Shown here piece after piece: positions 4,044-7,653 of a stretch of 58,715 nucleotides of DNA. The stretch covers positions 1 to 58,715 of the forward strand of contig SVOK01000009.1 of the NCBI GenBank assembly GCA_015066445.1. Reading direction: 5' to 3'. The notes beneath the pieces were generated by a model. That model did no database searches. It saw nothing but the letters and a program-made list of their open reading frames with translations, and was not told the origin of the DNA. This DNA comes from Oscillospiraceae bacterium. GTDB taxonomy: Bacteria; Bacillota; Clostridia; Oscillospirales; Acutalibacteraceae. Every line of letters starts with the position of its first letter. The stretch's first letter is position 1. The position numbers and the translations under genes are program-made.

Positions 4044-4796
4044 ATGAACAAAAACAGAAAAGATATGATTTTAGATTTAATTAAGGAAAATGGTTTTGTA
4101 ACCGTAAAATACTTATGCGAAAAATTGCATTATAGCACCGCCACCATAAACCGTGACCTTAACTATTTGAAAAATCAAAACCTGATAGTCAGGAAAGGCG
4201 GCGGTGCAGAACCTTTAGAACGTCGTTATCCACCTTTGCCGCTTAGAAACCAGAAAATGAAAACAGTTAAAAAACTATTAGCTAAGGAAGCCGCAAAGCT
4301 TGTTTCGGATAATATGACAATTTTTATTGATGGCTCAACAACCACACAGCTCCTAGGTAAATACCTCGCAGAATTTGAGAACCTTACGGTTATAACTAAT
4401 AATATGAATTTGGCGATTTATTTAAGCGATATGGGCATTGAGGTTGTATGTTTGGGCGGCAGAATAAATGAACGCCCTTATGTTGTTGGAAGCACTGAAA
4501 CCACACAGCAGGCGGCAACCTACAATGCCGATATTGTGTTTTTTTCCACAAGTTCAATGACCGCAGACGGCAAAATAAAAGGTGGGAACAATTATATTCT
4601 TTTCTACAGAACTATACTTGAAAATTCAACTAAAAAAGTATATTTAGCAGACAGCAGTAAGCTTGATTTCCAAGCTTCACGAAATATTTGTAGCTTTGCA
4701 GAAATTTCTACCGTTATTTCGGACTATAAATTCAGCGACCAAGTTAAAAATCAATTTTCGAAAACCGAATTTATCGAGGTTTCAAGTGAGAATTAA
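4044..4796 (+). CDS. DeoR/GlpR-family transcriptional regulator
   Basis: 250-residue DeoR-family protein. Residues about 4-57 form the winged helix-turn-helix (VTVKYLCEKLHYSTATINRD), followed by a LIVRKGGG turn. Residues about 75-235 match the DeoR sensor domain, related to ribose-5-phosphate isomerase folds, with conserved stretches IFIDGSTTTQLLG, TNNMNLAIYL, LGGRIN and ADSSKLDF. Members usually repress sugar or nucleoside catabolism genes and respond to a phosphorylated sugar; the effector here is unknown. RBS AAAGGAG lies just before the ATG. The gene is divergent from the secreted phosphoesterase gene, with repeated boxes between them, which suggests local and autogenous control. Confidence 0.88.
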   Translation: MNKNRKDMILDLIKENGFVTVKYLCEKLHYSTATINRDLNYLKNQNLIVRKGGGAEPLERRYPPLPLRNQKMKTVKKLLAKEAAKLVSDNMTIFIDGSTTTQLLGKYLAEFENLTVITNNMNLAIYLSDMGIEVVCLGGRINERPYVVGSTETTQQAATYNADIVFFSTSSMTADGKIKGGNNYILFYRTILENSTKKVYLADSSKLDFQASRNICSFAEISTVISDYKFSDQVKNQFSKTEFIEVSSEN

Positions 4797-4939
4797 TTAA
4801 ATGTTTGTTTTCGTTAAATAATACTTTTAAAGGGAATTTTCACTCTCTGCTCAAAGCTATAATTAACAGTTGAGTGAGATACCCGACCCTACAAATTCTG
4901 CGGATTAACACATAAAATTATTAAAACCGCTTTAATATC

Positions 4940-4968
4940 TTGATTTTTATATCAAAAAATGGTAAACT
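4940..4968 (+). promoter_or_regulatory. Promoter for candidate structured RNA
   Basis: -35 TTGATT (4940-4945), a 17-base spacer and -10 TAAACT (4963-4968). The expected start at about 4975 coincides with the first base of the long hairpin that follows. The rest of the stretch 4797-4939 shows no gene and no clear signal. Confidence 0.5.
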
Positions 4969-4974
4969 AAGCTT

Positions 4975-5130
4975 GCGACTTAGTTATATTTGTTCATAAA
5001 TGCACAAGCAGCATTTTTTACCCCGTAAAAAATGTATGCTCTATTTTGCTTGCTTGTGTAAAGTGAACAAACTGAGTCGCGTCAGTAGAGTAATACGTTT
5101 TTTGTGCGTAGCTCTGCTGCGCACTTTTTT
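4975..5130 (+). ncRNA. Candidate structured small RNA or leader with terminator
   Basis: About 155 nt that fold as one long interrupted hairpin followed by a terminator. Outer helix: 4975-4984 with 5071-5080 (10 bp, one G-U), then a 5-base bulge and 4990-4996 with 5064-5070 (7 bp). Middle helix: CACAAGCA (5003-5010) with TGCTTGTG (5051-5058). Apical helix: CATTTTTTA (5012-5020) with TAAAAAATG (5026-5034), closed by a CCCCG loop. A 9-bp stem (5104-5112/5116-5124) followed by six T forms an intrinsic terminator. A promoter points at its first base. I do not recognise the family; no T-box, 6S or known riboswitch consensus was seen. It may be a free RNA or an attenuator for the XRE gene starting at 5147. 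Confidence 0.5.
5104..5130 (+). terminator. Intrinsic terminator before the XRE gene
   Basis: GTGCGTAGC (5104-5112), a TCT loop and GCTGCGCAC (5116-5124) give a 9-bp stem with one G-U pair, followed by TTTTTT. It ends ten bases before the GGGGTG ribosome binding site of the XRE gene, so it either ends the upstream RNA or attenuates that gene. Confidence 0.7.
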
Positions 5131-5146
5131 ATTTTGGGGTGTAAAA

Positions 5147-5896
5147 ATGCAAGAAACGGTTAATCAACGTATCTTTCACATTAGAAAGCTAAAAGGCTAT
5201 ACACAAGCCGATATGGCAAGAACACTTAGGGTAGAGCAAATAATCCGAACCCGCCTCAAAGTGGTTTATTTTGGTGCTTTTTACCCGATTCAGTCTTGTA
5301 AGGCGTTAGCCTTACTACGCCTTACTCGAATAAAAATCCCTCAAAATCTTCTCACTTTGAGGTCGAAGATTTTAAAAAGTGAAGATTTTTATTCAGACGA
5401 GGCACAAAACGCAGTTAATCCTGACGGATTAACGAGTATTTTAACAAAGTATGAGTGAAAATCCGCCTTTTTAAAACGGAGTTCGGATTATTCGCTCTAC
5501 CCTAATATGAGGCTCAGTACCTATTCTCAGGCTGAGCGCAAGGGCAAAATTAAAACAGATTTTCTCATTAAAATAGCCGAAATATTAGAGGTTGACGTGG
5601 TTTATTTGCTTACAGGCAAGGAAAACAAAGTATGCGATAGTGAAATAACCATTCCCGCTGTAATAACAACCGAGCCGACCACAGCACCGAAGTTTGAAGA
5701 AAAAGAAGATTTGGCGCATTTGCTTTCCCGCATAAGCTTAACAGACGGAATATTAACCGCATTACTTAACATTTCAAGTGACCGAAGAAAAGCAATATAC
5801 AAATTAATTATATTAACCGTAAAGCATAGAAGATTCGATATTATCAGTGAAGTTGAAAGAATTGAAGCCTTATTAGAAACCAAAAAAGACTTATGA
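5147..5896 (+). pseudogene. XRE-family regulator gene split by a MITE
   Basis: The 5' part (5147-5228) encodes the first 27 residues of an XRE helix-turn-helix (MQETVNQRIFHIRKLKGYTQ...). The 3' part (5505-5896) encodes the rest (STYSQAERKG, then LIKIAEILEVDVVYLLTG) plus an acidic tail of about 90 residues. Joining the parts after removing 5229-5502 and one TA copy gives an uninterrupted 157-residue protein with a textbook HTH across the junction (MARTL-N-MRLSTYSQ). RBS GGGGTG precedes ATG 5147. As it stands, the first half reads into the element and stops at 5458. The second half has an ATG at 5507 but no ribosome binding site and lacks the first HTH helices, so the gene is probably inactive unless the element is lost. 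Family: Cro/CI-like; target unknown. Confidence 0.85.
5229..5502. mobile_element. 274-bp MITE with TA target duplication
   Basis: Terminal inverted repeats of 22 bp with one mismatch: GGGTAGAGCAAATAATCC... at 5229-5250 against 5481-5502. TA flanks both ends (5227-5228 and 5503-5504). The interior is rich in self-complementary pieces: CCTCAAAGTG/CACTTTGAGG, GAATAAAAATC/GATTTTTATTC and GTAAGGCG/CGCCTTAC. It encodes no transposase; the reading frame across it is a run-on of the XRE gene. TA duplication is typical of IS630/Tc1-mariner transposases, so a helper of that kind elsewhere in the genome is inferred. Confidence 0.85.
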
Positions 5897-5923
5897 CGGA
5901 TAAAATCTGTCATAAGTCTTTTT
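5883..5923. terminator. Bidirectional terminator between XRE remnant and mutase gene
   Basis: An 18-bp stem (5883-5900 with 5906-5923, one G-U) with loop TAAAA. It has A5 on one side and T5 on the other, so it can end transcripts from both converging genes. The left arm includes the stop codon of the XRE frame. Confidence 0.85.
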
Positions 5924-5943
5924 GCAATTAAAACAGAGAAGAT

Positions 5944-7653
5944 TTAAAATCCTAATATTTTTGAGCCTGCTTCCACAAGGCTTTGCTTTTTCTCCTCACC
6001 GTCAGCCGCAGAGCTGCCGACAGCGCAAATATAAATTTTGATTTTTGGCTCTGTTCCCGAGGGTCGAACTATAAACGAGCTACCGTTCTCCAAGAAATAA
6101 CAAAGCACGTTTGACTTTGGAAGTGTGAGAACAGTTTTCTCACCCGAAACAGCATCAATAGAAACTGACTCGCCATAATCGTTGATTTTAACAACCTTGC
6201 TGCCGTCAACCTCTGTGGGAGCATTCTCACGAAGAGAAGCCATAATGCCCTTAATCTTTTCCATACCGCTCTGACCCTCGCAGGTAAAGCTCTTTTGCTG
6301 AGTATAATAATAACCGTATTTTTCATAGATGCCATCAAGCACGTCGCAAAGGGTTTTACCCTGCATTTTATAAAAAGCGGTCATTTCGCAGATGAGCATT
6401 GAAGCTACAACAGCGTCCTTATCACGGGCATAGCTACCAGCCAAATAGCCATAGCTTTCCTCAAAACCAAATATATAACGGTCCTGCTCATTCTTTTCAG
6501 CAAGCAAAGTAATCTGCTCGCCAATAAACTTAAAGCCTGTAAGCACATTAACAAGAGTGCAGCCGTAATCATCAGCAATTTTCTGGCAAAGCTCGGTTGA
6601 AACTATTGTTTTAACAGCTAAGGGATTTTTAGGCAATGTGCCGTTAGCGGTGCGGCGCTCAAGAATATAATTAAGAAGCAATGCTCCAACATCGTTACCG
6701 CTGAAAAGCTTATACTCGCCCTTTTCGTTTACTGCGATACCAACTCGGTCGCTATCGGGGTCGGTAGCAAGCAGGATATCGGGGTTATAGCTTTCAGCCA
6801 CCTTTAAAGCGCACTCAAAAGCCTGACGGATTTCAGGGTTGGGATAAGGTGCTGTGGGGAAGTTACCGTCAGGATTTTCCTGCTCGGGCACAACTGCAAC
6901 ATTATTAATTCCAAGGCGCTTTAAAATTGCTCTTACAGGCTTATTTCCTGCGCCGTTAAGAGGAGTGTAAACCACTCTTAAATCAGAAAGGTCGGCATCA
7001 GGCTCAACACGCTGAGCCTCAACATTGTCAAGATATTCGTTTATAATATCATCGCCGATATATTCAATTAAGCCTTCTTCAACAGCTTTTTCGTAATCAG
7101 TAGTCTTAACGCCTGAGAAAATATCCACGCTCTGCATTATTGAAAGCACAAAATCAGCTGCCTCAGGTCCTAACTGACTGCCGTCAGGACCGTAAGCCTT
7201 ATAGCCGTTATATTTTGCGGGGTTATGGCTTGCTGTAACAACAACACCGGCATCGCAACCCAGTCTTCTTACTGCAAAGGAAAGCATAGGAGTAGGCATA
7301 AGCTCTTTATAGATATAAACCTTAATGCCGTTTGCGGCAAAAATTGCAGCAGCAGCACGCGCAAAAACATCGGATTTAATACGGCTGTCATAAGCGATAG
7401 CAATTTTACCGTTAGGTGTTACCGAATTAACATAAGCGGCAAGACCTTGCGAAGCCTGACCGACGGTATAAATATTCATACGGTTAGTACCTGCTCCGAT
7501 AACACCTCTGAGTCCTGCTGTGCCGAATTCAAGGTTTTGATAGAAAGCATCTGAAATAAGCTCATCATTACCGCTCATTTCTTTAAGCTCGGCAACAAGG
7601 TCAGGGTCGCCTATTGCTTTTTCACACCATAATTTGTACTGTTCTTTAATCAT
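5944..7653 (-). CDS. pgcA: Phosphoglucomutase/phosphomannomutase
   Basis: 569-residue alpha-D-phosphohexomutase, the usual length for Firmicutes PgcA-type enzymes. It interconverts sugar 1- and 6-phosphates, linking glycolysis to cell wall and glycogen precursors in the cytoplasm. The catalytic phosphoserine loop TASHNPAKYNG has Ser142. The metal loop is ATDPDSDRVG (Asp298, 300, 302). The sugar-binding loop is FGFEESYGY (about 396-403), and the phosphate-binding loop RPSGTEPKIKIY lies near 533. RBS AAGGAG precedes the ATG. It appears to be the last gene of a minus-strand unit with the CapA-like and DUF554 genes. Whether glucose or mannose phosphate is preferred cannot be read from the sequence. 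Confidence 0.92.
   Translation of the reverse strand: MIKEQYKLWCEKAIGDPDLVAELKEMSGNDELISDAFYQNLEFGTAGLRGVIGAGTNRMNIYTVGQASQGLAAYVNSVTPNGKIAIAYDSRIKSDVFARAAAAIFAANGIKVYIYKELMPTPMLSFAVRRLGCDAGVVVTASHNPAKYNGYKAYGPDGSQLGPEAADFVLSIMQSVDIFSGVKTTDYEKAVEEGLIEYIGDDIINEYLDNVEAQRVEPDADLSDLRVVYTPLNGAGNKPVRAILKRLGINNVAVVPEQENPDGNFPTAPYPNPEIRQAFECALKVAESYNPDILLATDPDSDRVGIAVNEKGEYKLFSGNDVGALLLNYILERRTANGTLPKNPLAVKTIVSTELCQKIADDYGCTLVNVLTGFKFIGEQITLLAEKNEQDRYIFGFEESYGYLAGSYARDKDAVVASMLICEMTAFYKMQGKTLCDVLDGIYEKYGYYYTQQKSFTCEGQSGMEKIKGIMASLRENAPTEVDGSKVVKINDYGESVSIDAVSGEKTVLTLPKSNVLCYFLENGSSFIVRPSGTEPKIKIYICAVGSSAADGEEKKQSLVEAGSKILGF

Follow-up and report, generated by a model that had tools for sequence, protein, structure and literature searches.

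The 274 bp at positions 5229-5502 of the window (the whole stretch of DNA analysed, 58,715 nt from an Oscillospiraceae bacterium) probably represent a non-autonomous mobile element, the insertion of which at a TA dinucleotide inactivated a gene for an XRE-family regulator, and not a switch. This copy belongs to a large family of ~275-bp elements in gut Clostridia, and this family is of the MITE kind: its members have terminal repeats and a target-site duplication, they are small and multicopy, and they carry no transposase gene.

The original prediction had placed an element of 274 bp, bounded by inverted ends of 22 bp and a TA duplication, in the HTH of an XRE regulator, and this is borne out: the two ends match at 21 of 22 positions, with one mismatch, and TA is present on both sides (Table 1). 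If the arms are extended to 5226-5250 and 5481-5505, 24 of 25 positions are complementary; moreover, the 274 bases fold with a z-score of -10.4 relative to shuffled sequences. In the present sequence, the frame that begins at 5147 meets its stop at 5456-5458, within the element; on the 3' side, the frame is open until the stop at 5894-5896, and the remainder of the gene is, as had been claimed, free of other lesions. The same genome encodes an intact paralogue (L297:904-1386), which is assigned to HTH_3 by Pfam (E 2.8e-9). The 5' piece of the interrupted gene (27 amino acids, 5147-5227) is identical to residues 2-28 of this paralogue at 23 of 27 positions, and the 3' piece (130 amino acids, 5504-5893) matches residues 29-160 at 71 of 132. 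Given that residues 28 and 29 adjoin at the junction, no residue is missing from the XRE gene, and the expectation that removal of the element would restore the frame without loss of a residue is likewise upheld. Outside its own genome, the best match to the XRE gene has an E-value of only 1.7e-8 (149 genomes searched, own included).

Table 1. Features of the interrupted XRE gene and of the element within it (window coordinates)
Feature	Position	Strand	Basis or remark
Terminator-like hairpin in the XRE leader	5104-5124	+	Also present before the paralogue
5' piece of the XRE-family (HTH) regulator gene	5147-5228	+	27 codons and one base
Present frame of the interrupted XRE gene	5147-5458	+	Same frame as ORF 5000-5458; stop inside the element
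Left TA of the target-site duplication	5227-5228	.	Sequence; single TA at empty sites of another copy
MITE-like element, 274 bp	5229-5502	+ (the family's sense orientation)	Inverted ends; other copies; covariance model E 9.1e-82, this copy being itself among the 28 elements from which the model was built
Left terminal inverted repeat	5229-5250	+	22 bp
Folded arm A (stems P2 and P3; P3 hairpin 5301-5312)	5254-5362	+	Consensus structure; coordinates hand-counted, alignment A1
Folded arm B (stems P4 and P5)	5377-5469	+	Consensus structure; coordinates hand-counted, alignment A1
Most conserved core, pattern for the genome scan	5407-5445	+	Alignment; L001:1679-1717
Right terminal inverted repeat	5481-5502	+	22 bp
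Right TA of the target-site duplication	5503-5504	.	Sequence; single TA at empty sites of another copy
3' piece of the XRE gene, uninterrupted until its stop	5504-5896	+	Paralogue match; open frame

The XRE copy is, thus, a loss-of-function insertion. The further claim that it is recent holds in part: the gene is otherwise intact and would, therefore, have been inactivated not long ago, the open codons 3' of the element suggesting less than about a few per cent of divergence since the insertion, but the closest full copy in the same genome is just 88% identical to the window element. Two further observations concern the flanks of the gene. The leader (4906-5146) is shared with the paralogue (L297:658-903) at 72% identity, in a match that extends into the gene; both leaders contain the same terminator-like hairpin directly 5' of the ribosome-binding site, together with a longer stem whose arm sequences differ between the two while the pairing is kept in both, and the XRE leader looks like an attenuator. 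At the other end of the gene, a palindrome at 5883-5923, similar to one that ends the paralogue, is probably a terminator.

A search of the genome for further copies, as had been proposed, was productive: full or partial copies occur at eight other places in the own genome, and the element was found in 41 of the 149 genomes searched, own included. All of the other copies in the own genome differ from the window element by at least 8%, and identities of 91% are seen to copies in another species (G021) and another genus (G079); the window element may, then, have come from a copy outside the assembly, which is 87% complete, or from elsewhere. At one copy (G000:C27), the duplication of TA is shown by comparison with empty sites. 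This copy lies 3' of rplU and 5' of a reading frame that precedes rpmA; the flanking L21 and L27 genes were identified by NCBIfam, and the middle frame, which has no NCBIfam match, we take to be prp. An element-free query, made by joining the two flanks, matched 66 of the 70 genomes of the genus (own included), and the loci of 24 relatives were read. The element is absent from all 24, where 23 have one TA and the other has TG. Eight of these empty sites, including that with TG, align without gaps near the junction; the remaining 16 have 1-18 extra bases there, and the exact position of their TA depends on the alignment.

To assess the extent of the family, a pattern derived from the conserved core was scanned against a collection of 84,980 species, yielding at least 116 stretches; the first 80 of those listed carry titles of Clostridia, Clostridiales, Oscillospiraceae, Ruminococcaceae, Eubacterium, Ruminococcus or uncultured bacteria. 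Of the 116 loci listed, 73 have a full-length match and 38 a match that is cut at the edge of the locus, that is, at a contig end or the edge of the stored stretch. The 112 distinct full-length elements measure 269-277 bp, a range narrowed by the boundary search, which favoured TA and matching ends and accepted only near-whole-profile matches; TA is present at both ends in 99 of the 112, and the inverted ends match at 15-22 of 22 positions. The covariance model was built from 28 of the 29 elements extracted for the first alignment, the other being left out as cut, and its matches are spread over 76 of 148 genomes, representing 24 of 64 genera. With a cut-off of 1e-40, 29 of the 70 genomes of the genus remain, and so do genomes from other families (G100, G108, G147, G093, G117 and G135); weaker matches are ambiguous, as palindromes score by themselves. 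The short matches within the window (~20-95 bases) were taken as stray hairpins and not as family members. Phages, plasmids and viral contigs were searched without any match to the element; an Rfam scan of window positions 4800-6000 gave three weak matches, the best at 20.5 bits and none near its gathering score. No description of the family was found in the literature searched, which was available in part.

Among the more distant matches of the covariance model, 22 loci were read. Seven of these (L299, L300, L309, L312, L317, L318 and L320) also match on the opposite strand at 1e-12 or better, and part of their score, therefore, comes from their being palindromes. A sequence-only profile, searched against these 22 loci alone, matches 14 at a threshold of 1e-15 and 17 at one of 1e-8. 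For the two in the own genome, L299 and L300, sequence homology is not established (E 0.0035 and 0.0088, respectively), L300 matching better on the opposite strand. The others, L301-L320, come mostly from other families or genera; their length (275-281) and some of the interior are conserved, but their ends are different and often lack TA. One of them, L312, is flanked on both sides by a perfect 9-bp repeat that, by eye, is absent from the other distant members inspected.

Several of the copies show irregular arrangements. In the own assembly, copies are cut at the contig ends of G000:C29 and G000:C32, and 15 of the 38 edge-cut matches among loci L102-L217 begin at model positions 127-143, halfway along the element, which would fit a tendency of assemblies to break at the centre of the palindrome; in that case, the copy number is underestimated. 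At L109:6441-6753 and at G047:C32:38262-38811, two elements lie head to tail in the same orientation with one TA in common, as would result from insertion of one into the end of its neighbour. Additionally, L043 (G042:C12:118360-118419) is a miniature derivative of ~60 bp that has both ends and almost no interior.

The inverted ends vary between subfamilies (for example GGGTAGAGC, AGCAAAGCC, GCCAAAGCA and GGGTGACGA after the TA), both arms changing together, and the best sequence conservation is found in the interior, above all at model positions 169-216. This combination of covarying, variable ends with a conserved fold and core is the reverse of an ordinary MITE. The consensus fold comprises two arms closed by the paired ends. 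For the fold statistics, 64 of 98 elements were kept after redundancy reduction: 94.3% of cells are paired, versus 31-48% after sliding of the partners, and changes on both sides are seen in 53 of 73 pairs, both values being helped by the fitting of the alignment to the structure. In the inner pairs common to the predictions for both strands, GU (114) is about as frequent as AC (97), and there is, thus, no signature of an RNA strand, which fits a constraint at the level of DNA; an excess of GU in the sense-only structure is biased by the prediction itself. As single strands, the sense sequences fold lower than the antisense in 22 of 57 elements in one comparison and 18 of 64 in another, antisense being slightly better on average. 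Consensus folding favoured the sense strand in one case (-46.9 versus -37.5) and the antisense in the other (-180.5 for sense versus -186.8). The structure, therefore, has no clear transcribed strand, and either a DNA-level constraint or correction of the arms by template switching fits better. Template-switch correction of quasipalindromes can produce covariation between arms, and it could account for the arm covariation seen here in place of selection. Two other features may be mentioned. The loops of P3 and P5 (alignment A2) can pair fully, e.g. GTCA with TGAC, in 23 of 64 elements versus 14.4 in shuffles, a value reached by 4 of 2000 shuffles; an alternative cause may be global palindromic symmetry or relatedness. 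The median longest open stretch is 66 codons in sense, 54 in antisense and 47 in mononucleotide shuffles, which we would not read as coding.

The members of the family are strongly sense-oriented at ribosome-binding sites. Of 107 elements (the 112 less five with <200 bp of flank), 50 have a ribosome-binding site and start codon within 45 bp on their sense 3' side, versus 8 on the antisense 5' side (p 1.6e-8); in windows further out, the counts are 6-11 for sense and 3-5 for antisense, of 89-107. The same bias is present in both sources of sequence, namely, 22 versus 2 of 41 in whole genomes and 28 versus 6 of 66 in the titled collection. For the 95 elements with TA at both ends and enough flank, 44 sense and 6 antisense lie 0-29 bp before a start, and the next 30 bp hold 4 and 1, respectively. 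Of 46 start-adjacent copies, 24 have a Shine-Dalgarno core whose start lies 1-2 bases past the first base of the TA. Of 56 elements between co-directional genes, 46 have the sense orientation; this count drew on 90 elements with enough flank and neighbours, genes being crudely taken as long open frames. Clustering of their proteins puts the 50 downstream genes into 49 groups; these are, therefore, separate insertions and not a regulon. Sites identified by NCBIfam include, in the own genome, one between ribF and an FtsK-like gene (the score with the FtsK model is below its cut-off and the sequence is cut) and one before spoIVA, and, in G021, one between ffh and rpsP. The elements seldom lie within open frames: of 105 rows, 5 did so in sense and 10 in antisense, two loci being counted both ways. 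The XRE copy belongs to this small group of interruptions. The distant loci have a start site on the sense 3' side in 0 of 22 and on the antisense side in 3 of 22; the placement rule is, thus, shown for the main family alone.

Candidate explanations for the sense bias are an oriented insertion or selection after insertion. Tests of three others gave no explanation of it. Promoters are not in excess over 99 elements in crude consensus scans; for the window copy, an equally crude scan of 4790-5600 gave 0 promoter-like sites versus 2.1 in shuffles, with none in the gene's own leader either. Terminators do not distinguish the strands, being found in 94 sense and 93 antisense of 98 elements by a tool-like definition, which we prefer to another definition that gave 94 sense and 16 antisense of 99; the window copy itself contains terminator-like sites on both strands, three on the minus and one on the plus. 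An anti-Shine-Dalgarno motif is not conserved: TCCTC occurs in 37 sense, 17 antisense and 21 shuffled sequences of 99.

The search for a mobilising enzyme gave no support to the partner originally envisaged, an IS630-type transposase: its DDE_3 domain (PF13358) was detected in 6 of 148 genomes and in none of the 70 genus genomes, among them 39 with a completeness of 90% or more. The IS4/IS5-type PF01609 (DDE_Tnp_1) is present in 6 of the 70, and in 0 of the 29 with strong elements; DDE transposases of these two kinds are, then, rare in the genus. Y1_Tnp is found in 81 of 148 genomes, and within the genus it shows no association with the elements (22 of 29 versus 27 of 41, p 0.43). Reverse transcriptase (RVT_1) occurs in 17 of the 70 genomes, the own genome not among them, and its distribution, judged by eye, is 7 of 29 strong-element genomes versus 10 of 41 others. 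Across 148 genomes, facing pairs of ends of the window copy's type span 60-278 bp and none encloses a transposase gene; unpaired ends of this type also occur, several of them near contig edges.

The comparison with known systems is by published description, and from it the nearest kinds are Correia/NEMIS, RUP, BOX and the bcr repeats. The Correia/NEMIS elements of Neisseria are small, with 24-bp inverted ends and TA, form a stable stem-loop and often lie immediately upstream of genes (PMC2229807, PMC10969869); small size, inverted ends with TA, the stem-loop and the upstream position are, as described, common to the present family. By contrast, our elements are ~275 bp, with ends that differ widely between subfamilies and a kept interior, and lack a promoter excess in crude scans, whereas sense-only placement at the Shine-Dalgarno sequence does not feature in the portions of the Correia/NEMIS descriptions consulted. 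RUP of Streptococcus pneumoniae, for which IS630-Spn1 is the IS630 partner proposed, is a non-autonomous, intergenic element of 107 bp with inverted ends and a TA target (PMC2229807), and resembles the present family, on the partial description, in its target, inverted ends, intergenic position and non-autonomy. However, RUP, BOX and SPRITE are reported, in the text available, to be enriched between convergent genes (PMC3049150), whereas our family concentrates upstream of starts, in a genus where the search for an IS630 transposase was negative. The bcr1-bcr18 repeats of the Bacillus cereus group are MITE-like or structured, about half being transcribed and often in untranslated regions (PMC3446304); their descriptions set them apart from our family by host group, and the parts consulted contain neither covarying ends around a core nor Shine-Dalgarno placement. 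Finally, the CIR elements of Caulobacter have two folded arms and no pairing inverted ends (PMC2229807, in part); the present elements are also two-armed, but their arms are closed by paired ends.

How far these data can be explained otherwise deserves consideration. Reversibility, by which the element would excise and re-insert precisely and so turn the XRE gene off and on, had been offered as an alternative to a recent insertion, and we regard it as highly improbable. The frame is restored upon removal and the 3' piece is open; however, such restoration is expected of any target-site duplication, only Y1_Tnp of the four enzyme families tested (DDE_3, DDE_Tnp_1, Y1_Tnp and RVT_1) is present in the own genome, and the other copies there have diverged from the window element to the extent given above. 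It is scarcely credible that the element is a self-splicing, intron-like RNA that leaves the XRE mRNA intact: the paired ends, conserved fold, sense bias and in-frame junction would all be accommodated, but insertions within frames are rare and without sense bias, no intron family was matched in the Rfam scan and the own genome is without a reverse transcriptase.

Two other explanations carry more weight. Selection on a structured RNA in 5' leaders, either a mobile riboregulator or a Correia/NEMIS-like substrate of ribonuclease III, would explain both the interior and the placement; it would draw on the conserved fold, the sense bias and adjacency to Shine-Dalgarno sequences, the one consensus folding that favours sense, the loop-loop complementarity and the precedent of Correia and bcr elements that, in the descriptions available, are transcribed within messenger RNAs (PMC10969869, PMC3446304). 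We nevertheless think it unlikely, given that the near-equality of GU and AC, the failure of sense single strands to fold better, the non-conservation of an anti-Shine-Dalgarno motif, the unrelatedness of the downstream genes and the absence of an Rfam match all speak against it. Somewhat less likely still is an ordinary IS630-derived MITE whose partner was missed through gaps in the assemblies. The TA duplication, the inverted ends and the incompleteness of the own genome are consistent with such an origin, but DDE_3 was detected in none of the 70 genus genomes, the more complete ones included, the facing ends enclose no transposase gene, and the interior is conserved across subfamilies whose ends differ.

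We, therefore, return to a non-autonomous element that would move as DNA, by transposition at TA with an enzyme supplied in trans. The folded interior would be kept by virtue of a need for it in mobility, or in tolerance after insertion, because the ends alone would not require its conservation. The usual safe landing site would be a TA immediately preceding a Shine-Dalgarno sequence, at which the ribosome-binding site would survive the duplication intact; the XRE copy would be one of the few to have fallen inside a gene, with plain loss of function as the consequence. More tentatively, and with low confidence, the family may represent a class of element in which a folded core of ~275 nt is the conserved unit, insertion is oriented at a TA 5' of the Shine-Dalgarno sequence, and the mobiliser reads both the fold and the context of the translation start. 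Were this so, the mobilising system might be transcription-coupled or act on single strands, and the ends, perhaps also the length of the duplication, could differ between lineages while the core persists.

Overall, one broken gene gives entry to a family of folded mobile elements spread over several families of one order of gut Clostridia. The many copies, together with the few DDE transposases of the two kinds tested, make the question of the mobiliser a concrete one. By their position, the elements set ~275 bp of structured DNA immediately 5' of ribosome-binding sites, including those of spoIVA, the FtsK-like gene and rpsP, and they may well change expression there. Moreover, their oriented placement before some 50 unrelated genes presents a testable puzzle, namely, how a mobile element finds the starts of translation.
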